Positions 19,345 through 57,683 of a DNA stretch of 64,000 nt are shown one piece after another; within the stretch, counting starts at the first letter, position 1, and each line of letters opens with the position of its first letter. Made by a program: the position numbers and the translations under genes. The stretch is from assembly GCA_014803435.1 (NCBI GenBank), contig JACYFD010000003.1:62001-126000 (forward strand), read 5' to 3'. Origin of the DNA: Cellulosimicrobium terreum. Lineage in GTDB: Bacteria > Actinomycetota > Actinomycetes > Actinomycetales > Cellulomonadaceae. The notes below the pieces were generated by a model. The model had not been told where the DNA came from, did no database searches, and saw only the letters and a list, made by a program, of their open reading frames with translations.

Positions 19345-22300
19345 ATGTCACGACGACGACCGCCGGCCGCGCTCGCGGCCCTGACCCTGCTCGCGGGTGC
19401 CGCGCTCACCGCGACACCCGCGTACGGCGTCGGGCAGCCCGACGACGCCGCCCAACCAGGAGCGCCCGTGCGCGTCACCCTCGACGACTTCGGGGGGTAC
19501 GCCGACGACGCCGCGCTCGCCGGCACCTACACCCGCAACACGAACGGCGGCGCGAACGCCGTCACGCTCGTCGACTCGCCGTTCGAGGATGTCGACGGTG
19601 AGGACCTGGGCTCCGCGATGCGACTCGAGTACGGCTTCACGAGCGGCTACTCGGGCCGCTCCCGCGCGGTCGACGGCTACTGGCCCGGCCTGCAGGCCGT
19701 GGAGCTGTGGGTGCAGAACGGCACACCCGGACAGGACCTGCTGCTCCAGGTCAGCGACGGCGCGTCGTACGAGGCGCACCTGAACGACGTCGCCGGCTTC
19801 GACCCGACGTCGGCCGAGCCTCAGCACGTGCACATCCCGGTCGAGGACTTCCGGCCCAAGTCCGGGACCGGCACGCTGCGATCCAGCGGCATCACGTCGT
19901 TCGCGCTCTACATCAACCAGGTCGCCGGTGGTCCCGGCGCGAACGGAGGCACCATCGTGGTCGACGAGATCGACCTGCTCCTCGACGAGGCACCCGAGCC
20001 GCCCGCGGTGTCGTTCGACGAGACGACGCTGACCACCGACGGTGCGACCAACCTCGTCGCCCTGCTCGACCAGCGCGCGACCCTGCCCGCCGGGGCCCGC
20101 ATCGTCCAGGCCACCTGGACCTCGAGCGACCACGCGGTCCTCGCGGACGCCACCCGGCCCGTGCCCAAGGGGGACTTCGACGCGCAGGGCAGTGTCGCCG
20201 TCGACCTCCACCAGGTCCGGCTGTTCGTGCCCGCGCCCGTGGGCGGCGTCGGCACCACGTTCACGGTCGACGTCGACACCCGCCTCGACATCACGGTGGA
20301 CGCCCTGCGCGGACCGGTCGACGTCGTGGACTACCTCGACTCGATCACGGGCACCGGCATGCTGTCGGCGATGCACCACGACGGGTCGTACGCGAGCGCG
20401 CAGGACGCGCTGCACCAGCGCGTCGCGAACGAGTTCGGCGTCTACCCCGCGCTGTACAGCGCCGACTTCCTCACCGGCCAGACGGTCCCCTACCGCCAGC
20501 AGATGATCGACGAGGTCGCGCGGCAGTGGGACGAGGGCAACCTCGTGCAGATCATGTTCCACGTCTCCCCGCCGCAGTACACCGTCGCCCAGGAGGCGCA
20601 GGGCGGCTGGGGCGGCGACCAGGCGCACGAGACGCTGCCGAGCCCCAACCGCATCTTCTCGTTCCTGTACGAGGACCAGTGGGACGAGCTCATGACGGAC
20701 GGCACGCCGCTCAACGAGAACTGGAAGGCGCGCATGGACGAGTACGCGCGCTACCTCCAGCAGCTCGAGGACCGCGGCGTGACCGTCATGCTCCGCCCGT
20801 TCCACGAGATGAACCAGCACGTGTTCTGGTGGGGCGGTCGCCCGGGTTCGGAGGGCAGCCCGGAGCTGTACCGGATGTTCCACGACTACCTGGAGGACGA
20901 GAAGGGCCTGTCGAACATCGTGTGGGTCTGGAACGTCCAGGACCTGCCCGACGACTACGGGTTCGCCGACGGCGACGCCAAGTTCGACCGCTACGAGGGC
21001 CTCGAGGGTGGCCTCGCGGAGTACGACGCGAACGACTGGTCGAGCTTCAGCCCGGGCGCCGACTACTACGACGTGCTGTCCGTCGACTTCTACGACGTCG
21101 GCGGCTACACGCAGCGGTACTACGAGCAGGCGCAGGCCATCGCACAGCGCGACGACAAGCCGATGATCATCGGCGAGACCTTCGTCTTCCCGACGCAGGA
21201 CGAGATCGCCGCCCAGCCCGACTGGTCGCTGGCGATGCCGTGGGGCGGACGCACCTGGAACTACAACACCCCCGAGGCCATGGAGACGTTCTACGCGCAC
21301 AGCATCGGCGCGTCCGGGCTCCCCCGGTTCGCGTCGCGCGGCGACGGCGAGAGCAGCAGCCCCCGGGTGGTCGACGCCCGCGTGATCGGGGTCGTGAACC
21401 CGCACGGCTACGAGGTGAGCGCGCTCGCCGTGCGGTACGACCGAGCGCTTCCGGCGGGCGAGGTCGACCCGGCCGCCTTCGAGGTCCGGGCGGACCTCGA
21501 CGGCCCGACGCCGGCGACGTCGTCGGACGGCCCGCGCACCGTGGTCCGGGCGACCACGAGCGACGTGCCCGACGCCGTCCCGGGCGCCGATCCCGTCGCC
21601 GGCGAGTGGGTGGTGCTCGAGCTCGACACGACCGACCTCAACGCCGCGGGGACCTACTACACCGACGCGACGCACCTCTACGACCTCGCGGACTCCTACT
21701 CGGTGCGCCAGGTCCGCGGTGTGACGATCGGGGACCGCACGGTGGCGGGCGGCGGGGCCGCGGACGCGTCCGCGGTGATCAGCCCGGTGGTGGACGAGTA
21801 CACGTCCGGGCAGTGGGACGGCGCCGGCGACCCGTTCCGGTACCGGCTCTTCACGCCGGAGGCGGTGCGCACAGGCACCGGCCCGGCTTCCGGTGACCTC
21901 TACCCCCTCGTGCTCACCCTGCACGGCACGGGTGAGTCGGGCACGGACAACACGGCCCAGCTCGTGGGGAACCAGCTCTCGGTGGCGTTCGCCGACCCCG
22001 CCCGCCAGGCGAGCGACCCGGCGTTCGTGCTCTCCCCGCAGCGCTCCGCCGAGACCGACTGGCTGACGCCGAGCGGTCGGCTGGCGCTCGTCGGGATGGT
22101 CGAGGACATGATCGACCGCTACCCGGTCGACCCTGAGCGCGTGTACCTCACGGGTCTGTCGCGCGGTTCGCGCGGGAGCTGGCCGCTGCTCGCCGAGAAT
22201 CCCGACCTGTTCGCCGGCGCGCTGCTCGTCGCGGGCGGCGAGTCTGCCGATCTCACGGCGCAGATCACGGACCTGCCCGTCTGGGTGCACCACTCGATCG

Positions 22301-22884
22301 ACGACCCGACGGCCCCCTACGCCCTCACGCTCACCGCGCTCGACGGCCTCGAGCGTGCGGGCGCCGTCGTGACTCGCGGCGAGTGGGCGGGCAACCTCCC
22401 GCACGACGAGGCCGCCGCGAACGCCCAGGCGCTGTGGGACGACGCCGAGGACGCGGGCAGCGAGGTGCTCCTCACGTCCTACTCCCCCGGCACCACCGGC
22501 ACCCCGGACCGGCTCGCGTACGCCCACTCGTCGTGGATCCCGACGTACTCCAACCCCGTCGTCCTCGACTGGCTGTTCGCGCAGTCGCGCGACGCCGCAC
22601 CGTCGGTCGACGTGACCGTCGAGGCGTCCGCGCGGTGCCTGGCGGGGAAGGCGTACGTCGCGGTCCGCGCGACCAGCACGGGCACGGACCCGGTGGACGT
22701 GACCCTGCGGACGCCGTACGGCAGCAGGACCTTCGAGGCGGTGGCGCCCGGGAAGAACGCCTACCAGTCCTTCGCCGTCCGGGCGGCGTCCGTGCCCGAC
22801 GGCACGGCGACCGTCGCCGTGCGGGGCACGACCGGTGGTGAGACGACGATCGACACCGACTACGAGGGCGTGTCCTGCGGGTAG
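19345..22884 (+). CDS. Secreted GH26 beta-mannanase fused to an esterase-like domain
   Basis: Predicted bifunctional extracellular enzyme of 1179 residues. Order: signal peptide (1-28, ending AYG); jelly-roll carbohydrate-binding-like domain (about 40-215); Ig-like segment (220-328); GH26 endo-beta-mannanase (about 329-670) with acid/base E488 in RPFHEMNQ and nucleophile E611 in MIIGETFV; a beta-rich linker domain (about 675-810); a COG4099-like esterase/PHB-depolymerase-type domain (about 815-1085) with LHGTGESG, nucleophile S939 in TGLSRGSRG, acid D986 or D987 and H1061 in YAHSSWIP; and a two-cysteine C-terminal module (1087-1179). The natural reading is mannan cleavage plus removal of acetyl groups, though the esterase substrate is inferred. 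ATG 19345 has a good Shine-Dalgarno. Repression through the upstream operators is likely. Confidence 0.88.
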   Translation: MSRRRPPAALAALTLLAGAALTATPAYGVGQPDDAAQPGAPVRVTLDDFGGYADDAALAGTYTRNTNGGANAVTLVDSPFEDVDGEDLGSAMRLEYGFTSGYSGRSRAVDGYWPGLQAVELWVQNGTPGQDLLLQVSDGASYEAHLNDVAGFDPTSAEPQHVHIPVEDFRPKSGTGTLRSSGITSFALYINQVAGGPGANGGTIVVDEIDLLLDEAPEPPAVSFDETTLTTDGATNLVALLDQRATLPAGARIVQATWTSSDHAVLADATRPVPKGDFDAQGSVAVDLHQVRLFVPAPVGGVGTTFTVDVDTRLDITVDALRGPVDVVDYLDSITGTGMLSAMHHDGSYASAQDALHQRVANEFGVYPALYSADFLTGQTVPYRQQMIDEVARQWDEGNLVQIMFHVSPPQYTVAQEAQGGWGGDQAHETLPSPNRIFSFLYEDQWDELMTDGTPLNENWKARMDEYARYLQQLEDRGVTVMLRPFHEMNQHVFWWGGRPGSEGSPELYRMFHDYLEDEKGLSNIVWVWNVQDLPDDYGFADGDAKFDRYEGLEGGLAEYDANDWSSFSPGADYYDVLSVDFYDVGGYTQRYYEQAQAIAQRDDKPMIIGETFVFPTQDEIAAQPDWSLAMPWGGRTWNYNTPEAMETFYAHSIGASGLPRFASRGDGESSSPRVVDARVIGVVNPHGYEVSALAVRYDRALPAGEVDPAAFEVRADLDGPTPATSSDGPRTVVRATTSDVPDAVPGADPVAGEWVVLELDTTDLNAAGTYYTDATHLYDLADSYSVRQVRGVTIGDRTVAGGGAADASAVISPVVDEYTSGQWDGAGDPFRYRLFTPEAVRTGTGPASGDLYPLVLTLHGTGESGTDNTAQLVGNQLSVAFADPARQASDPAFVLSPQRSAETDWLTPSGRLALVGMVEDMIDRYPVDPERVYLTGLSRGSRGSWPLLAENPDLFAGALLVAGGESADLTAQITDLPVWVHHSIDDPTAPYALTLTALDGLERAGAVVTRGEWAGNLPHDEAAANAQALWDDAEDAGSEVLLTSYSPGTTGTPDRLAYAHSSWIPTYSNPVVLDWLFAQSRDAAPSVDVTVEASARCLAGKAYVAVRATSTGTDPVDVTLRTPYGSRTFEAVAPGKNAYQSFAVRAASVPDGTATVAVRGTTGGETTIDTDYEGVSCG

Positions 22885-24432: not shown

Positions 24433-27400
24433 TCAGCCGCAGTCGAGGGCCGTGTAGGGCGCCTCCACCTCGGACGCCCCCGCCGTCACCGTCGCGACGC
24501 CCGCCGGTACCGAGGTCCCGCGCACCGCGAACGACTGGTACGCGCTCCTCCCCGACGCGACCGCGGCGAACGCCTTGCTCCCGTACGGCGTGGTGAGCGT
24601 GATCGCCACGTCACCGCCGGCGGCGGTGCTCGTCGCCCGCACCGCGACGTACGCCTTCCCGGCCAGGCACCGCGACGACGCCTCGACCGTGACCGGCGCC
24701 ACGTCGCCCGCGACCGCCGTGCGCACGTCGTCGACCACGAGCACGGCCGGACCGCTCCCACCGAGGTAGAACGACAGCTCGGTGACGGACTCCAGGTCCG
24801 GGCGACCACCGCCGCCTGCCCACGGCGGCAGCTCGAGGTCGTCGAACGGCACGTGGACCGTCCCCGCGGGGTGCGGGCCGGCGTCGGGCAGGACGGCCTC
24901 GAAGGTCTGGCCGCCCGCACCGATCTGCACGGTCACGGTCTGCCCGGCGGACAGGCCGGACCGGTCGAGCCACAGGTCGAGACCCGTGTAGCCCCACCAG
25001 GACTGCGGCTCGACGAACACCCGGGTGACGCCGGCATACCCGGACGACGCGAGCGTCGTGCTCAGCCGCATCGCCTGACCGTCCCCCGACCCGGCCTGGC
25101 TCTCGACGAGCGTCGAGGTGATCGCGTCGCCGCCCGGGTTCGCGCGGTGAGCGGCGGTGAGCGCGCCGTCGTCGGCGAAGGACTCGTAGTCCTCGACGAC
25201 GAGCGGCTCGGTGGGCAGCGCGTCCGTCGTGAACGTCCGCGGCCCGCCGGTCATCGCGGTGGTCCCCGCCCCGTTGACCGCCTCGACCCGCCACGTGTAC
25301 GCGGTGTTCTCGGCCAGCTCGACGTCGGGGGCAAGGCTCGTCCCGCGGACCTCGGCCGCGACCACGGGCGCCTCCGGAGCGTCCGCGGCGGCGAGCGTCA
25401 CGCGATACGTGGCGGCCTGCGCGGCCGGCTCCCACCTCAGGGTGGGCGTGCCGCGGACGCCGGTGGCGTCCGCGTCCGGCGTGACGGCGGCGAAGGTGCC
25501 GGGTGCGGCGAGCGTGGGACCGTCCGCGGTGAACAGCCGCACGCGGCCGAGCTGCTGCGCCCACTCGGGCGTCGCGTCCGCGGGCCAGGCGACGCGCAGC
25601 GCGTCGGCACCCGAGGGCGCGGTCCCGGCGTAGTCGTACCGGCCCCACGCTCCGCCGACGGTCCCCGGCGCCCCGGTGACGGCCGGGTCCAGCGCCTGCC
25701 ACGCGCCGTCGACCCGCGCCTCGAGCGTCAGGTGCGCGGGCTCCGCGTCCGGCCAGTACCAGCCGGTCGCCTCGAACCGCGTGAGCCCGTCGGCCTCCCA
25801 CGTCAGCGACGCCGCGCCGGGCGCCTCGCGCTTGGCGCGCGAGGCGTCGCCGCCGAACAGCGCCGGGTTGCCGGCGTCGAGGCCGACCGGCCCGTCCGGG
25901 GTCGCGTGGGTGAGGTCGTCGAGCGCGTCGTCGACGCTCGGCAGGTCCTCGGCGCCCCGCAGGGTCACGCGCTCCAGCCGCGCCGTCGCGCCGCTCGGCC
26001 AGGCGACCCGCAGGTACTGCGCGCCTGCGGGCGCCACGACCATGACCGCGTACGTCCCGTCCGCCCCCGGCCCGGCGGCGGTGCTCGCCGTCGTCCACGA
26101 CGTCCCGTCCGCGCTGGTGGCCACCTCGAGCGCCGTGGCGGCGTCCGGGCCGTCCGCGCGGACGCGCAGCTCGGCGCCGTGCAGCCCGGCGTGCTCCCAG
26201 GTGGCGTGCGCCGCGCCGTCGTCGGCCGGTCCGAGAAGGGCCACCTCCCCGTCGGGCACGACGCGCAGGTTCGACGCGTCGGCGAGCGGGCGCTGCGTCT
26301 CCAGCGGGTCGACGAGGACGTCCTCGCCACCGGCCGCGACAACCGGTTCTGAGGCCGGGCCCTCGGTGCCACCCGTCCCGCCCACGCCCACGGGCACCAC
26401 CCGGTAGGCCGCGTCGTCACCGGTCGCGGTGTCGAGGTACGGCTCGCCGGAGTCGGTCAGGCCGTCGGCGACGACGGTCCACCCACCGGTCGGCGCACCG
26501 TCGGCCACGGCGGAACGCTCCAGCCGGTACGTCGCCGCACCGGCCGCGCCGCGCCACGACACCTCGTGGAAGCCGTAGCTGCTCCCGACCTGCGTGACGA
26601 GAGGCCGGCCGATGGTGACCGGGACCTCGGCGCCCGCGAGCGCCGCGGAGTACGTGCGGATCGCGTCGACGTTGGTGCGCATGCGCTCGTCCGTGCCGGG
26701 GTAGTGCAGCGTGAAGCCGTCGTCGTGCGGGACGAGGCCGGACGCGTCGTCGTGCCCGAACAGCGACCAGAACATCATCCCGCTGACGTCCGGCTCCGCG
26801 GCCAGGGGCTCGAGGAGCTCCGGCGTCGCGGCGGTCGAGGCGTACTCCCCCGCGACGTACACCTTGCCGGCGTCGGTGATGCGGGCGGCGTCGGCGCGCA
26901 CGCTCGCGACGGTCGGCGGGTAGTAGTGCACGTCGACGATGTCGATCAGCGGGGACGCGAGCGTGTCGTCGTCGATGGAGAACCTGCGACCGGCCGCGAC
27001 GAGCTGGCGCGGCGCGCGCTCGGAGATCTCCGTCGCGACGTGCTCGATCCAGTCGGGGGTCATGCCCTCGAGCTCGTTGCCGAGCTCCCACGCGAGGACC
27101 GTCGGGTCGTCCTTGAGCGCGAGGCCCGTGTACGGGTTGACGTGGTCCATGACGTGGTGGACGTAGTCGGTGAAGTCCGCGCGGACCTGCGGGTCGGAGT
27201 AGAACTGCGGGCACGGCGTGAACATGTCGATCGGCGTGCAGTAGCCGTGCGGGGCCGCGAAGTCGCGGTGCCCGCCGTGGTAGTACGCCCACTCGTCGGT
27301 GAGCGGCAGGATCAGGCGGATGCCCTTGCTCCCCGCGTACGCGACGGCGTAGTCGATGCTCGCGAACGCCTCGGCCGAGTACCCGTCCTCGGGCGACGGC

Positions 27401-27873
27401 AGGATGGCGAGCTCCGTGCCCGTGGACGCGAGCATGTGCGAGCGCACGACCGTCACGCCGAGGTTTGCGGCCGTGTCGAGGGCGTCCCGGATGCGGAATG
27501 CCGTCGGGTAGTCGACGACGCCGGGCGGCACGTTCTCGTCGAGCCCGAGCCAGTAGATGTTCGTCCCGCTGAAGCGGAACGTCTCGCCGTCGAGCACGAG
27601 GCGCGAGCCGTCGCGCTCGACGAACGACGTGTTGCGGCTCTCGCCGACGGAGGTCGTGGACACGGCGCTCGGGCTCTCCTGGGTCGGGATGACGGGTGCG
27701 GTGCCGACCGTGGCACCGGCCGGTACGACCGTACCGGCGATCGCGACCCCGACGGCGAGCCCGACGGCGGTCGCGACAGTGAGGGCCCGGCGCGCCGGGG
27801 TCGGTCGGTGGTCGGGTGGGGTCTCGGGTCGTACGACGCGGCTCCGCGCCGCGCGCAGTCGTCGTGGGGTCAT
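24433..27873 (-). CDS. Secreted multidomain GH5 beta-mannanase-like enzyme
   Basis: Predicted extracellular endo-beta-1,4-mannanase of 1146 residues. A long Arg-rich leader and signal peptide end near AGAT (about residue 54). The GH5 (subfamily 7-like) barrel spans about 70-415, with acid/base E267 in WELGNELEGM and nucleophile E343 in YVAGEYAST. Then come a fibronectin-III-like domain (about 420-525), two galactose-binding-like regions (about 530-620 and 630-730), another FnIII-like domain (about 745-880), a jelly-roll binding domain (about 888-1055) related to the N-terminal domain of the GH26-esterase protein, and the shared two-cysteine C-terminal module (1057-1146). GGAG lies 6 bases before the ATG. 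It is divergent from the second GH26 gene across an operator-rich spacer. Mannanase rather than another GH5 activity is judged from sequence and context. Confidence 0.85.
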   Translation of the reverse strand: MTPRRLRAARSRVVRPETPPDHRPTPARRALTVATAVGLAVGVAIAGTVVPAGATVGTAPVIPTQESPSAVSTTSVGESRNTSFVERDGSRLVLDGETFRFSGTNIYWLGLDENVPPGVVDYPTAFRIRDALDTAANLGVTVVRSHMLASTGTELAILPSPEDGYSAEAFASIDYAVAYAGSKGIRLILPLTDEWAYYHGGHRDFAAPHGYCTPIDMFTPCPQFYSDPQVRADFTDYVHHVMDHVNPYTGLALKDDPTVLAWELGNELEGMTPDWIEHVATEISERAPRQLVAAGRRFSIDDDTLASPLIDIVDVHYYPPTVASVRADAARITDAGKVYVAGEYASTAATPELLEPLAAEPDVSGMMFWSLFGHDDASGLVPHDDGFTLHYPGTDERMRTNVDAIRTYSAALAGAEVPVTIGRPLVTQVGSSYGFHEVSWRGAAGAATYRLERSAVADGAPTGGWTVVADGLTDSGEPYLDTATGDDAAYRVVPVGVGGTGGTEGPASEPVVAAGGEDVLVDPLETQRPLADASNLRVVPDGEVALLGPADDGAAHATWEHAGLHGAELRVRADGPDAATALEVATSADGTSWTTASTAAGPGADGTYAVMVVAPAGAQYLRVAWPSGATARLERVTLRGAEDLPSVDDALDDLTHATPDGPVGLDAGNPALFGGDASRAKREAPGAASLTWEADGLTRFEATGWYWPDAEPAHLTLEARVDGAWQALDPAVTGAPGTVGGAWGRYDYAGTAPSGADALRVAWPADATPEWAQQLGRVRLFTADGPTLAAPGTFAAVTPDADATGVRGTPTLRWEPAAQAATYRVTLAAADAPEAPVVAAEVRGTSLAPDVELAENTAYTWRVEAVNGAGTTAMTGGPRTFTTDALPTEPLVVEDYESFADDGALTAAHRANPGGDAITSTLVESQAGSGDGQAMRLSTTLASSGYAGVTRVFVEPQSWWGYTGLDLWLDRSGLSAGQTVTVQIGAGGQTFEAVLPDAGPHPAGTVHVPFDDLELPPWAGGGGRPDLESVTELSFYLGGSGPAVLVVDDVRTAVAGDVAPVTVEASSRCLAGKAYVAVRATSTAAGGDVAITLTTPYGSKAFAAVASGRSAYQSFAVRGTSVPAGVATVTAGASEVEAPYTALDCG

Positions 27874-27942: not shown

Positions 27943-28012
27943 ATGTCAACGCTGTCACGCTGGGATCGTTCCCATCGCGAATATCAGATCTCCCAGCGCA
28001 TTAAGCGGTTCA
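27943..28012. promoter_or_regulatory. Three LacI-type operator classes between GH5 and GH26 genes
   Basis: The 219-bp divergent spacer carries ATGTCAACGCTGTCAC (27943-27958, class B like 19271), TGGGATCGTTCCCA (27961-27974, 12 of 14 positions identical to the CelR/CebR consensus TGGGAGCGCTCCCA known from cellulose regulons), and TTAAGCGGTTCA (28001-28012, class A like 16887 and 18054). A GGAGG site precedes the GH26 ATG at 28093. Control by mannan- and cello-oligosaccharide signals is inferred. Confidence 0.65.
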
Positions 28013-28092
28013 TGACAACGGTAGACACGCCTCCCCTCGTCGGTCTACCGTGGCCGCGTCAGGCACCACTCACGCAACGACGCGGAGGACGC

Positions 28093-29613
28093 ATGCGACA
28101 CCACACCCCTGCCCCATCGACGGGCACTGGGACCAGCACCCCGGACGCCACCCGGGCCAGCACGGCGGCCGCGACCGGTCGCCCCCGCCACGCCCTGATC
28201 GTGGCGCTGGCCGCCGGCCTCGCGGCACTGCTCGTCGCGACGATCGCGCCGGCCACGGCTCCGACCGCCCAGGCCTTTCCCGCCCGGGACAAGCAGGCCG
28301 TGATCGACTACCTGCGCTCCATCACCGGGTCCTCGGTCGTCTCCGGGCAGCACAACAAGGAGCCCGCGAACCAGCCCGGCCAGTACACGCAGCAGGTCCA
28401 CGACATCACCGGTCAGTACCCCGGGCTGTGGGGCGGCGACATGATGTTCCGCGGTACCGACGCCGCGAACCGGCAGCGCGTCGTCGACCAGGCGAAGGCC
28501 GAGTGGGCGAACGGCTCGCTCGTCGCGCTCACCTGGCACGCGTGCTCCCCCACCGTCGGGTCCACGTGCGAGTTCGAGGGCGGCGTCAAGACGCAGATCA
28601 GCCAGGCCCAGTTCGACCAGGTCGTCACCGGCGGCACCGCGCTCAACCAGACGTGGCGTGCCCGGATGGCCGAGGTCGTGCCGTACCTGCGCCAGCTCAA
28701 GGACGCTGGCGTCCCCGTGCTCTGGCGCCCCTTCCACGAGATGAACGAGACGTGGAACTGGTGGGGCGGGCGACCCGGGGCGAACGGCGGGGCGAAGATC
28801 TACCAGCAGATGAAGGACTACTTCGACTCCCAGGGGCTCGACAACCTCATCTGGGTCTGGAACGTGCAGGACAACCCGAACGCCAACTGGTCGAGCTACT
28901 ACCCCGGGAGCTCGTACGTCGACGTCGTCAGCCTCGACGTCTGGTACAAGAACCATCCGAGCCAGGGCGACTACCAGCAGATCCAGTCGATCGCCGGGAG
29001 CAAGCCCATCGCCCTCGCCGAGCTGGGCAAGGTCCCGAACGCCTCGCTCCTCGACAGCCAGCCGCGCTGGAGCTACTTCATGGTCTGGTCCGAGCAGCTG
29101 CGGGGGAACAACTCGAACACCGAGATCCAGTCTGCGTACTTCCACCCGCGCGTGCTCAACCAGGGCGAGGTGCAGCTCGGCGGTGGCACCCCCACGACCC
29201 CGCCGCCCGGGTCGACGACGCGGACCGGTGCGATCACGGGGCTCGTCGGGAAATGTGTCGACGCCGCGGCGTCGGGCACAGCGAACGGGACAGCGGTCCA
29301 GCTCTACACGTGCTCCCCCGGCGTCGCCCAGACGTGGGAGGTCCGCACCGACAGAACCATCCGCAACCCCCACGCGAACAAGTGCCTCGACGTGAGCGGC
29401 CAGGGCACGGCGAACGGGACCCTGATCCAGCTCTGGGACTGCAACGGGTCCGGGGCCCAGCAGTGGGTGTACTCGTCCGAGGCGCAGTCGCTGCGCAACC
29501 CGCAGTCGAACCGGTGCCTCGACGTGACCGGCCAGTCCTCGGCGAACGGCACGCGCCTACAGCTCTGGGACTGCTCCGGCAGCGCCAACCAGCGGTGGAC
29601 CCTCCCGTCCTGA
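28093..29613 (+). CDS. Secreted GH26 beta-mannanase with C-terminal ricin-type lectin domain
   Basis: Endo-beta-1,4-mannanase of 506 residues. The signal peptide follows a Thr/Ala-rich N-region and ends at AQA before FPARDKQAV (about residue 61). The GH26 barrel (about 62-360) has acid/base E216 in WRPFHEMNETWNWWGG and nucleophile E310 in IALAELGKV. A Thr/Pro linker (PTTPPPGSTT) leads to a ricin B/CBM13 trefoil (about 378-506) with repeated CLDV...QLWDC and QxW motifs. Start ATG 28093 was chosen for its GGAGG Shine-Dalgarno; the frame is open further upstream, but that region is the operator-bearing promoter. It lacks the two-cysteine module found on the other two mannanases. Confidence 0.93.
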   Translation: MRHHTPAPSTGTGTSTPDATRASTAAATGRPRHALIVALAAGLAALLVATIAPATAPTAQAFPARDKQAVIDYLRSITGSSVVSGQHNKEPANQPGQYTQQVHDITGQYPGLWGGDMMFRGTDAANRQRVVDQAKAEWANGSLVALTWHACSPTVGSTCEFEGGVKTQISQAQFDQVVTGGTALNQTWRARMAEVVPYLRQLKDAGVPVLWRPFHEMNETWNWWGGRPGANGGAKIYQQMKDYFDSQGLDNLIWVWNVQDNPNANWSSYYPGSSYVDVVSLDVWYKNHPSQGDYQQIQSIAGSKPIALAELGKVPNASLLDSQPRWSYFMVWSEQLRGNNSNTEIQSAYFHPRVLNQGEVQLGGGTPTTPPPGSTTRTGAITGLVGKCVDAAASGTANGTAVQLYTCSPGVAQTWEVRTDRTIRNPHANKCLDVSGQGTANGTLIQLWDCNGSGAQQWVYSSEAQSLRNPQSNRCLDVTGQSSANGTRLQLWDCSGSANQRWTLPS

Positions 29614-54160: not shown

Positions 54161-54265
54161 CGTAGCACGAGTTTCCGCTCGTCCGACACTCGATGTTGTT
54201 ATCTGTACGTTTACGTGGGATTCTGTCGCGTGACACCGCAGTCACCACTCGACGACGAGGACCCC

Positions 54266-57200
54266 ATGAGAAGACCACGCTCGCGCGCAGCGCTCGCCCT
54301 GACCTGCGGCGCGATCGCACTCGGCCTCACGGCGCCCGCTGCGGCTGTCGCGCCGGAGACCGTTCGCGCAGACACCCGACTCGGCCACGGCGGCGGGCAC
54401 CGCTGCCCTCGCCCCGGACCCGACGACGCCGCTGGACCGGCCAGAGGTCGGGCCGGGGACGTCGTTCGTCGACCCCGACACGAAGCTCGACGGGTACGCC
54501 GACCCGGACTGGTACACCGCCAACGTCCCGATGGTCGACCTGCCCGACGCCGACGCCGAAGCCGTCTACTACTACCGCTGGCGGGTGCTCAAGGAGCACC
54601 TGCGCTACACCGAGCCGAGCACCGGCTGGGTCGTCACCGAGTTCCTCGACTGCTGCGGGTACGCCGCGCCCTACCAGGCGATCAACGCCGCGGCGGGCCA
54701 CCAGCTCGCCGAGGGCCGGTGGCTGCGCGACCAGCGGTACATGGACGACTACGAGGACTACTGGCTCACCGGCCCGGGGCAGATCTCCCCCGCGCAGAAC
54801 CCCGAGGCCGCGGACTGGGCGCACCAGTACTCGTTCTGGGCGGTGTCGGCGATCGTCGAGCGTGCGAAGGTGACCGGGAATATCGACCGGCTGCGCTCGC
54901 TGCAGCCCGAGCTCGAGACGTTCGTCGAGGACTGGGGCAACCAGTACGACACCGAGACCGGCCTCTACTGGCAGACGCCCGAGTACGACGCCAAGGAGAG
55001 CTCCCCCGCGTCCTACGCGACCGACAAGGCCTACGCCGGACGCCACACGTTCCGGCCGTCGATCAACGCCTACCTGTACGGGGACATGACCGCGCTCGTC
55101 GAGGTCGCCGAGCTGGGCGGCGACGACGCCACCGCGGCCAAGTACCGCGAGCGGGCCGCCGACCTGCGCGCCGCCGTCGACACCTACCTCTGGGACGACG
55201 ACCGCCAGTTCTTCTACGACGTCGTCGACTGGGAGAACCCCGACCACGAGCCGCTGCGCGACCGCCTCGACGTCGGGTTCGTGCCGTGGAAGTTCGGCCT
55301 CGCGTCGCCCGACCAGGCGCCCGCGCTCGACCAGCTGTTCGACCCGCAGGGCTTCGCCGCCCCGTACGGGCCGACCGTCACCGAGCGTCGCAGCCCCGAC
55401 TTCTGGGCGCACTCCGACGAGGGCTGCTGCACGTGGGACGGCCCGTCCTGGCCCTTCTCGACGTCGCTCACGCTCGACGGCGTCGCGACCGCGCTGCGTG
55501 ACGGCGTGGCCGGCGACGTGACGCGCGCCGACTACGACGAGCTGTTCGACACGTATGTGCGTACGCAGTTCCGCGACGGCGAGCCGTACGTCGCGGAGGC
55601 GCACCACCCCGACGAGAACCGCTGGATCTACGACGGGAACAACCACTCCGAGGACTACCTGCACTCGAGCTACGTGGACCTCGTCCTCCAGGACCTGCTG
55701 GGCATCCAGGCGCAGAGCGACGACACGCTCGTCCTCGACCCGCTCGTCCCGGCGGACTGGGACTGGTTCGCGGCCGAGAACGTCCCGTACCACGGGCGGA
55801 ACGTGACCGTGCTGTTCGACCGCGACGGCACGCATTACGGCCAGGGCGCGGGTCTGCGCGTGTACGTCGACGGCGAGGTCGTGCTCGAGCGCGACGCGTC
55901 GGCCCTCGACGAGGACGCCGCCCCGGTCGAGGTCCCCGTCCCCGCGGGCGGTCCGCAGCACCTGCCGCACGCGGTGAACACGTCCGCGAACCCGCTCCAG
56001 CACGAGTTCCCGCGCCCGATCGCGTCGTACACGTGGCAGCACGACGACGCGTGGCGGGTGCTCGACGGCAAGGTCTGGTACGACGAGGTGCCGCAGAACA
56101 CGCGCTGGTCGAACTACTCGTCGCCGAACGCCGAGGACTGGCTCGGGGTCGAGCTCGGCGAGCCGACGCAGATCAGCGACGTGCGCTTCCACGGGTTCGC
56201 GGATTCCGACGCCGTCAAGGCCGCCGCGTCGTACGAGCTCGAGTACTGGGACGGCTCCGCGTGGCAGGTCGTGCCCGACCAGACCCGCTACCCGGAGCAG
56301 CCGGTCGGCAACGGCCTCAACCGGATCACCTTCCCCCCTCTCACCACGACGCGGTACCGGGTCGTGCTCGAGGCCGCGCCGGGGAAGTCCGTCGGCGTGA
56401 CCGAGCTCGAGTCCTGGACCGAGGTCTCGCGCGCGGTGTCCGTCCGCGTCTCGGCGGACGAGCCCGCCCTCGGCGCGTCGTCACGGGTCGAGGCGACCGT
56501 CTCGGCGCGCGACACTGCCGTGAGCGGCGCCGTCGTCGGACCCGACCTGCCCGAGGGCTGGACAGCAGTCCCCGTGGGCGACGACGGCCCGCTCGACCTC
56601 GACCCGTGGGCCCGCGCGACCCGGGCGTGGGACGTCACACCCGGCCCCGACGCCGTGCCCGGCAGCGAGGCCCGGCTCGGCGCCGTCGTGCAGTGGTCCG
56701 AGGACGGGGGCGCCGGTCCGGAACCGCAGGAGGCGGCCGGCAGCACGACCGTCCGGCTCGCGTTCGACCCGTCCTGGTACGACGACGTCGTCCTGCACGA
56801 CGACTACGACACCGACACGACGAGCGACTACACGGCGCTCGAGCCGTCCGGCGAGCCGCTGCCCGCGGTGACCGCGGGCGACGGGACCCTCGCCGCGACC
56901 GGCGCAGCCCGGTACTGGGGTCTGTACGGGCACGAGACCGCGCGAGCGACCGCCTCGTCGGTCGTGATCGCCGAGATCGGCGACTTCTCCGGAGCGGGCA
57001 CCTCCGAGGACTCGCTGTTCCTCGGCCTGGCCGCGACCGACCGCACCTACGCGCTCGGGTGGTTCAACCACACGAACGTCGCCGCCGGGCTCGACTACGT
57101 CGGCGGGGAGGGCGGGTCCTCCCCGTGGTTCGGCATCAAGGGCTACGGCCCGGGCGACCGGCTCGCGATGCGGGTCGACGGCGCACGGGTGGACGTGTTC

Positions 57201-57683
57201 GCCGAGGAGGCCGGCGAGTGGACGTACTACGGCGGCACGACGACGGCCGGCGCGCTCGACACCTCCGACCCGGACGTCCTGGCGGGCCTCCTGCCGACCG
57301 TCGGCTTCCGGGCCGACTCCGGGACCGTCAGCATCTCCTCGTTCGAGGTCCGGGCCCGGACCCAGGAAGGGCCGACCGATCCCCCAGCACCCGACGTCGC
57401 CGTCACGGCGAGCCCCCGGTGCCTGGCCGGGAAGGCCTACGTCGCGGTCCGGGCGTCGTACACCGGGACCGGCGGGGCCGGGCTCGGCGACCCCGTCGGC
57501 ATCGCGCTGGTGACGGACCACGGGTCGAGCACCGTGCTCGACGTCGCGCCCGGGGCGAACGCGTACCAGTCGTTCGCGGTCCGGTCCGCCACGGTTCCCG
57601 CGGGGACGGCCACGGTCCGCGTGACCGACGCCGCCGGGGCGGTGACGGAGCACAGCGCCCCGTACGGCGGGCTCACCTGCTGA
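54266..57683 (+). CDS. Secreted (alpha/alpha)6 glycosidase-like protein with CBM32; frameshift after signal peptide
   Basis: ATG 54266 (GAGGA upstream) opens a signal peptide, MRRPRSRAALALTCGAIALG to APAAAVAPETV, in one frame. From about 54363 the coding sequence continues in the +1 frame (FAQTPDSATAAGTAALAPD) to 57683. The total length is a multiple of three plus one, so a single extra base lies between about 54330 and 54365; upstream of that the second frame is closed by stops. The mature part has an MGH1-like catalytic toroid (about 70-540; HSDEGCCTWDGPSWPFSTSL), an F5/8-type CBM32 (about 590-720), a beta-sandwich and LamG-like region (about 830-1030), and the shared two-cysteine module. 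Without the N-terminus, only ATG 54531 could start translation, giving no secretion. It is either a sequencing error, a recent mutation or recoding. Confidence 0.7.

Follow-up and report, generated by a model that had tools for sequence, protein, structure and literature searches.

The module in the window and across the genome

Three enzymes encoded in a 64,000-nucleotide stretch of the Cellulosimicrobium terreum genome (the window) have different catalytic parts yet end in the same domain of about 92 residues, which raises the question of what this module is and why such different proteins carry it. A first-pass annotation, made from the sequence alone, had described the tails as one two-cysteine module, and in-frame copies do close each of the three proteins (Table 1), copies 1 and 2 being 63% identical in alignment. 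Parent 1 matches Pfam families PF02156 (GH26, 3.8e-19) and EstA_Ig_like (1.8e-11), parent 2 matches PF00150 (Cellulase, GH5, 1.2e-6), and parent 3 matches PF22422 (3e-68) and PF00754 (2e-9). The N-termini of parents 1 and 2 are signal-like in a sequence scan. The signal peptide of parent 3 (MRRPRSRAALALTCGAIALGLTAPAAA...; window positions 54215-54600) and its catalytic part are read in different frames, which reflects either a real frame break or an assembly error. The next gene, at 27943-29613, encodes a GH26-like enzyme that ends in ricin-type lectin repeats and not in the module.

Table 1. Copies of the C-terminal module in the window, their cysteine codons and their parent proteins
Feature	Position	Strand	Length	Remarks
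Parent 1, exported GH26 and esterase-like protein	19345..22884	+	1179 aa ORF	module at end
Module copy 1	22606-22881	+	92 aa	stop codon directly after
Cysteine codons, copy 1	first 22636-22638; last 22876-22878			last Cys followed by Gly and stop
Parent 2, exported GH5-like protein	24433..27873	-	1146 aa ORF	module at end
Module copy 2	24436-24699	-	88 aa	stop codon directly after
Cysteine codons, copy 2	first 24667-24669; last 24439-24441	-
Parent 3, MGH1-like glycoside hydrolase with F5/8 type C (CBM32-like) domain	54531..57683	+		module at end
Module copy 3	57390-57680	+	97 aa	stop codon directly after
Cysteine codons, copy 3	first 57420-57422			last Cys is the final codon before the stop

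When the whole 4.49 Mb genome was searched with copy 1, 50 other strong copies were found (E 5e-30 to 3e-13), showing that the shared tails are not due to chance and that the three carriers noticed at first are part of a set of 51. A profile search, as the first-pass annotation had proposed, recovered the same 51 copies on diverse exported enzymes, together with one divergent copy and weak repeats in one further protein. All 51 clear copies lie at the extreme C-terminus, each on a different open frame and one per protein. The divergent copy, in which both cysteines are present, ends an asparaginase-like exported protein (L183, G000:C1:550203-550469).

Pfam scans, which covered the first 1000 residues of most parents, place the parents in more than a dozen glycoside hydrolase families and among non-carbohydrate enzymes, so the earlier description of the carriers as glycosidases was too narrow. 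The glycosidases belong to GH2, GH3, GH5, GH13 (pullulanase-like), GH26, GH43 (several), GH51-type arabinofuranosidase, GH81, GH92 (five), GH95, GH97, GH127 (two) and MGH1-like families, and further parents are a pectate-lyase-like protein, ThuA/GSDH proteins and 3-keto-disaccharide hydrolases. The remainder include a subtilase, an M28 peptidase, a GDSL lipase, an alpha/beta hydrolase, GDPD, PAP2 and purple acid phosphatase proteins, and one protein of the LTD-endonuclease/exonuclease (extracellular-nuclease-like) kind. Most parents have signal-peptide-like N-termini according to a simple scan for hydrophobicity and ribosome sites, with the start codons of several being uncertain. Among the GH43 frames, the module is present on 6 of 10, and two of the four without it show no export signal.

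Fold, disulfide and conserved residues

AlphaFold2, run on copy 1 with the alignment of 51 copies, gave a single confident model (mean pLDDT 97.4) with seven strands in an Ig-like beta sandwich and no helix, which points to one fold for the three tails and not three unrelated ones. The two cysteines had been suggested to form one disulfide, with the last of them within two residues of the stop. In the genome, 49 of the 51 copies have the first cysteine and another 0-2 residues from the stop; the other two, on a GH127 protein and a ThuA protein, lack the first cysteine, and the last is also absent. Of 195 distinct copies in the loci read, 193 are C-terminal, a truncated frame and a distant repeat having been set aside, and among these 193 both cysteines are present in 188, both are absent in five and no copy is discordant. 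Such concordance would have a chance of about 5e-10 if the copies were independent, which they are not fully, but the five losses are spread over different parents and two bacterial families. In three Micromonospora copies, the last cysteine lies at least six residues before the end. As the cysteines never occur one alone, their covariation supports a single disulfide between the cysteine at the end of strand A and the C-terminal cysteine, which would join the last residue to the first strand.

Across the 51 copies, G39 and Y53 are invariant, and R10, C11, G14, A19, V20, R21, N24, T36, V46, G49, Q54, S55, F56, R59, G66 and the last Cys are at least 90% conserved. Conserved positions run consecutively from Y17 to R21 on strand B and through Y53-Q54-S55-F56 on strand E, suggesting that both faces of these strands are constrained beyond the needs of the sandwich core. 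Aromatic and basic residues on the surface are also conserved.

Comparison with known families and systems

The module belongs to a large, C-terminal, genus-wide domain family that has no description in Pfam or NCBIfam. When the 51 members were scanned against Pfam, nothing scored above the cut-off, and of the sporadic weak matches the best (E 0.00057, one member) was to a family of unknown function; for three parents scanned against NCBIfam, the module gave no match at E up to 1. None of them thus matches a named CBM, FnIII or Big family at the curated Pfam cut-off, in line with the view of the first-pass annotation that the module is not a standard CBM. No credible solved relative was found by sequence, and Foldseek returned no match at E 0.001 or better. 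The best VIA-align score (Z 9.5) was reached against many unrelated Ig-like domains, reflecting a common arrangement. For CcMan5, a GH92 enzyme of C. cellulans, the PDB holds a catalytic fragment (774-790 residues, 2xsg/4aq0), which does not help with the module. As a new domain family, the module would annotate about fifty exported proteins per genome.

Several known systems resemble the module in part. CBMs and bacterial Ig-like (Big) or FnIII domains share the beta-sandwich fold and the attachment to glycosidases, but the module is strictly C-terminal in this genome and has a conserved Cys pair that reaches the last residues. Cellulosomal dockerins, which are small calcium-binding helical repeats, likewise occur once per enzyme, mostly at an end, on many different enzymes that an organism exports, and by analogy the module would collect enzymes on a common acceptor as the cohesin-dockerin pair does. 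In contrast to helical repeats, the model of the module is an all-beta sandwich of seven strands with a probable disulfide, and there was no Pfam dockerin match; the duplicated, mostly helical calcium-binding F-hand motif of dockerins is thus not seen in the module. In type 9 secretion, a common C-terminal Ig-like domain is found on many exported enzymes; the type A sorting domain of Bacteroidota is, like the module, Ig-like, C-terminal and present on dozens of exported enzymes, but it works in another organism and envelope, no cleavage of the module is known, and the module does not match the curated models in NCBIfam, for the three parents scanned, or in Pfam. LPxTG/sortase anchors are also C-terminal and common to exported proteins. 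The first-pass annotation had set these anchors aside, and the 51 tails agree with this: none has an LPxTG motif or a membrane helix, and each is a folded strand followed by a Cys 0-2 residues from the stop or, in two tails, by no Cys. An LPxTG search gave 0-1 match per Cellulosimicrobium genome, the one in this genome being a different protein.

Distribution and evolution

All 17 Cellulosimicrobium genomes searched contain the module, with 24-62 copies in each. Outside the genus, the module is sparse, with smaller expansions in other Micrococcales. A family-wide search covered 222 genomes and scored up to 23 candidates in each; copy numbers of at least 12 were reached by genomes of three other genera, the remainder having 0-7. 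An even draw across the phylum gave a match in 6 of 396 genomes, the own genome included, and a second family of the same order gave one in 39 of 300, some with at least 16-17 copies. Single Micromonospora and Nonomuraea records carry the module, and genomes with a single copy are scattered over other genera and families. One outgroup protein (L221; G742:C19, 3052 aa frame) has three cysteine-less module-like domains that alternate with another Ig-like domain; apart from the sigma-factor repeats described below, no other copies were seen to be clearly internal.

The DNA similarity of the window copies across the first motif had been read as a sign of recent spread or strong constraint. The modules are diverse, with a mean column identity of 52%, and they tend to follow their parent genes across species, as judged from sequence: for 97 orthologs whose parents are at least 60% identical, the best match of the module in this genome was the parent's own module in 57, compared with a random expectation of about 1 in 51. 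Mean identity between orthologs was 68% for modules and 83% for parents. Since the modules are diverse and usually follow their parents, recent spread is not supported.

On ThuA-GSDH enzymes, the C-terminal domain differs between genera. It is the module in Cellulosimicrobium and two other genera, whereas four further genera have in its place a different repeat domain in which a cysteine lies near either end, and in one more genome of the family the enzymes close with repeats that are ricin-like by sequence. Such swapping of end domains on the same type of enzyme suggests that they serve in attachment or targeting. The alternative domain (L187-L196) has about 92 residues with the pattern CDAGG...WVDG...LAPG...CD, one cysteine near its start and another at its very end. 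Considered as a divergent form of the module, it gave a profile comparison probability of 0.7% and looks like a different domain.

The Xyl_I particle of C. cellulans F16

A possible setting for the module is Xyl_I, a "hemicellulosome" purified from the cell-free supernatant of C. cellulans F16 (Dou et al. 2015; PMC4562250). Xyl_I is roughly spherical, 20-65 nm in size and about 17.9 MDa, and it contains 27 proteins, including glucanases, xylanases, mannases, peptidases and laccases (PMC4562250). Neither cohesin nor dockerin was reported in its subunits or in the F16 genome, and its authors, who name no assembly domain, describe the mode of assembly as unclear (PMC4562250). The key subunit M768_06655 has the Pfam order ThuA, GSDH, PKD, CBM_6, PKD; at full length it is in the particle, whereas the free forms, of 118.3 and 118.5 kDa, lack about 500 residues at the C-terminus (PMC4562250). 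Calcium stimulates the particle but not the truncated subunit, and Xyl_S without the C-terminal part had a half-life of 6 h versus 214 h (PMC4562250).

This key subunit shares its domain order with module-bearing proteins of the same genus. In C. cellulans NBRC 15516 (G006), the protein L184 (1706 aa frame) has the M768_06655 order followed by two concanavalin A-like domains and then the module at residues 1611-1706. Cut before the concanavalin A-like domains, L184 has a calculated mass of 118-120 kDa, compared with the 118.3-118.5 kDa measured in F16; residues 81 to 1190, with the signal-peptide cut and the cleavage point both assumed, give 118.6 kDa. By domain order and mass, L184 therefore fits M768_06655, and truncation to the free form would have removed both concanavalin A-like domains together with the module. 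Of the parts in this lost piece, the module is the one common to all 51 proteins.

Possible role of the module

The first-pass annotation had offered surface retention, export or carbohydrate binding as roles. The range of parents, with its proteases, lipase, phosphatases and nuclease-like protein, makes a single substrate-specific role on carbohydrates less likely and favours attachment to a shared acceptor. We consider it quite possible, if just short of probable, that the Ig-like, disulfide-closed module docks about 50 exported enzymes non-covalently on one extracellular acceptor, and we propose it as the assembly module of Xyl_I. The wider claim, that a docking domain so far without a name builds a cellulosome-like particle through an Ig-like, disulfide-closed fold in place of dockerin and cohesin, and serves some 50 enzymes in each genome throughout a genus of aerobic actinobacteria, is somewhat unlikely. 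We infer both that the enzymes dock to a common acceptor and that Xyl_I is this acceptor. The enzymes would be exported by ordinary Sec or Tat signals, such as their N-termini appear to contain; the C-terminal domain would then fold, with the cysteine at the end of strand A pairing with the C-terminal one as covariation predicts. The acceptor would be bound by a face that strands A, B and E form with R10, Y17, R21, Q54, F56, R59 and neighbouring residues, as the conservation of both faces of strands B and E suggests, and the enzymes would thereby gather on a scaffold protein, on a vesicle or on a polymer of the cell surface.

In favour of docking, we count the 24-62 modules against 0-1 LPxTG anchors in each genome of the genus, and in favour of the link to Xyl_I, the large GH10 xylanases of the genus, which end in the module in all five that could be read. 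Three short GH10 xylanases, however, have different ends without the module, and laccases are named among the Xyl_I subunits whereas the scanned carriers of this genome yielded none; both speak against the Xyl_I reading. Either of the two concanavalin A-like domains in the lost piece could be the attachment point instead, genomes with a single copy are odd for an assembly module, and the internal cysteine-less copies of the outgroup protein also count against docking. Instead of being a dedicated complex, Xyl_I itself could consist of membrane vesicles or aggregated polysaccharide. With these points on both sides, the module may be the missing connector of the cellulosome-like particle secreted by the genus, in which case it gives a sequence handle on how Cellulosimicrobium assembles a multienzyme particle free of cohesin and dockerin; if docking is true, it would also be a genetically encoded tag for enzyme co-assembly.

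Other readings account for part of the same evidence. As a carbohydrate-binding module, the domain would bind one polysaccharide (plant, fungal or the cell's own) and keep the enzymes near it. Many parents are glycosidases within polysaccharide gene clusters, the conserved aromatic and basic residues lie on the surface, and the ThuA-GSDH enzymes elsewhere carry other end domains that include ricin-type lectin repeats. We nevertheless regard this as unlikely: the parent families act on mannan, arabinan, starch, beta-1,3-glucan and fucosides, on protein and lipids, on phosphate esters and probably on nucleic acids, many parents already have CBM6/35/11/32 or LamG domains of their own, and no Pfam CBM family scores above the cut-off. 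Retention at the cell envelope is a narrower form of docking, with the same action and the acceptor named, so that our estimates for the two overlap. The module would bind a wall polymer of the cell or membrane vesicles, replacing LPxTG, and Xyl_I would be shed envelope or vesicle material. The excess of modules over LPxTG proteins, the variety of parents, and the size and roughly spherical shape of Xyl_I, together with the surface protuberances cited by its authors (PMC4562250), are consistent with this, but Xyl_I came from a cell-free supernatant and single copies are scattered over other genera and families, and we hold this narrower form to be rather unlikely. A literature search on Cellulosimicrobium vesicles returned nothing relevant.

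It is also improbable that the domain is a structural cap that has no partner and only shields the C-terminus from carboxypeptidases or aids folding after export. Its position at the very end in this genome, the predicted tie of the last residue back to the first strand and the much lower stability of Xyl_S without the C-terminal part (PMC4562250) would suit a cap; it would not account for the polar residues conserved on the two faces of strands B and E, nor for the five intact cysteine-less copies, and other exported proteins of the genome, such as those with ricin repeats, do without the module. An export or sorting signal read by dedicated machinery would recall the C-terminal Ig-like domain shared by many exported enzymes in type 9 secretion. 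This is very improbable, as the host is an actinobacterium with no outer membrane of the Bacteroidota kind, the parents have N-terminal signal peptides, single-copy genomes exist and, to judge by the full-length M768_06655 in Xyl_I, the mature protein would keep its C-terminal part.

A sigma factor with related repeats

For the docking proposal, a scaffold with tandem modules was sought in this genome; no acceptor was found, and the only candidate was an ECF sigma factor fusion of 1703 residues with distant Ig repeats, which was rejected as a scaffold because other genera of the family have related forms. The protein (L182:1276-6384, G000:C7) has a zf-HC2 zinc-finger part and a long, probably extracellular region, in which the tandem Ig-like repeats are distant relatives of the module, the last of them having its cysteines in similar positions; the protein also has a Trp-rich C-terminal end. 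Relatives were found in all 17 genomes of the genus searched, with partial matches in four other genomes of the family, and the sigma factor might sense the same ligand as the enzymes.
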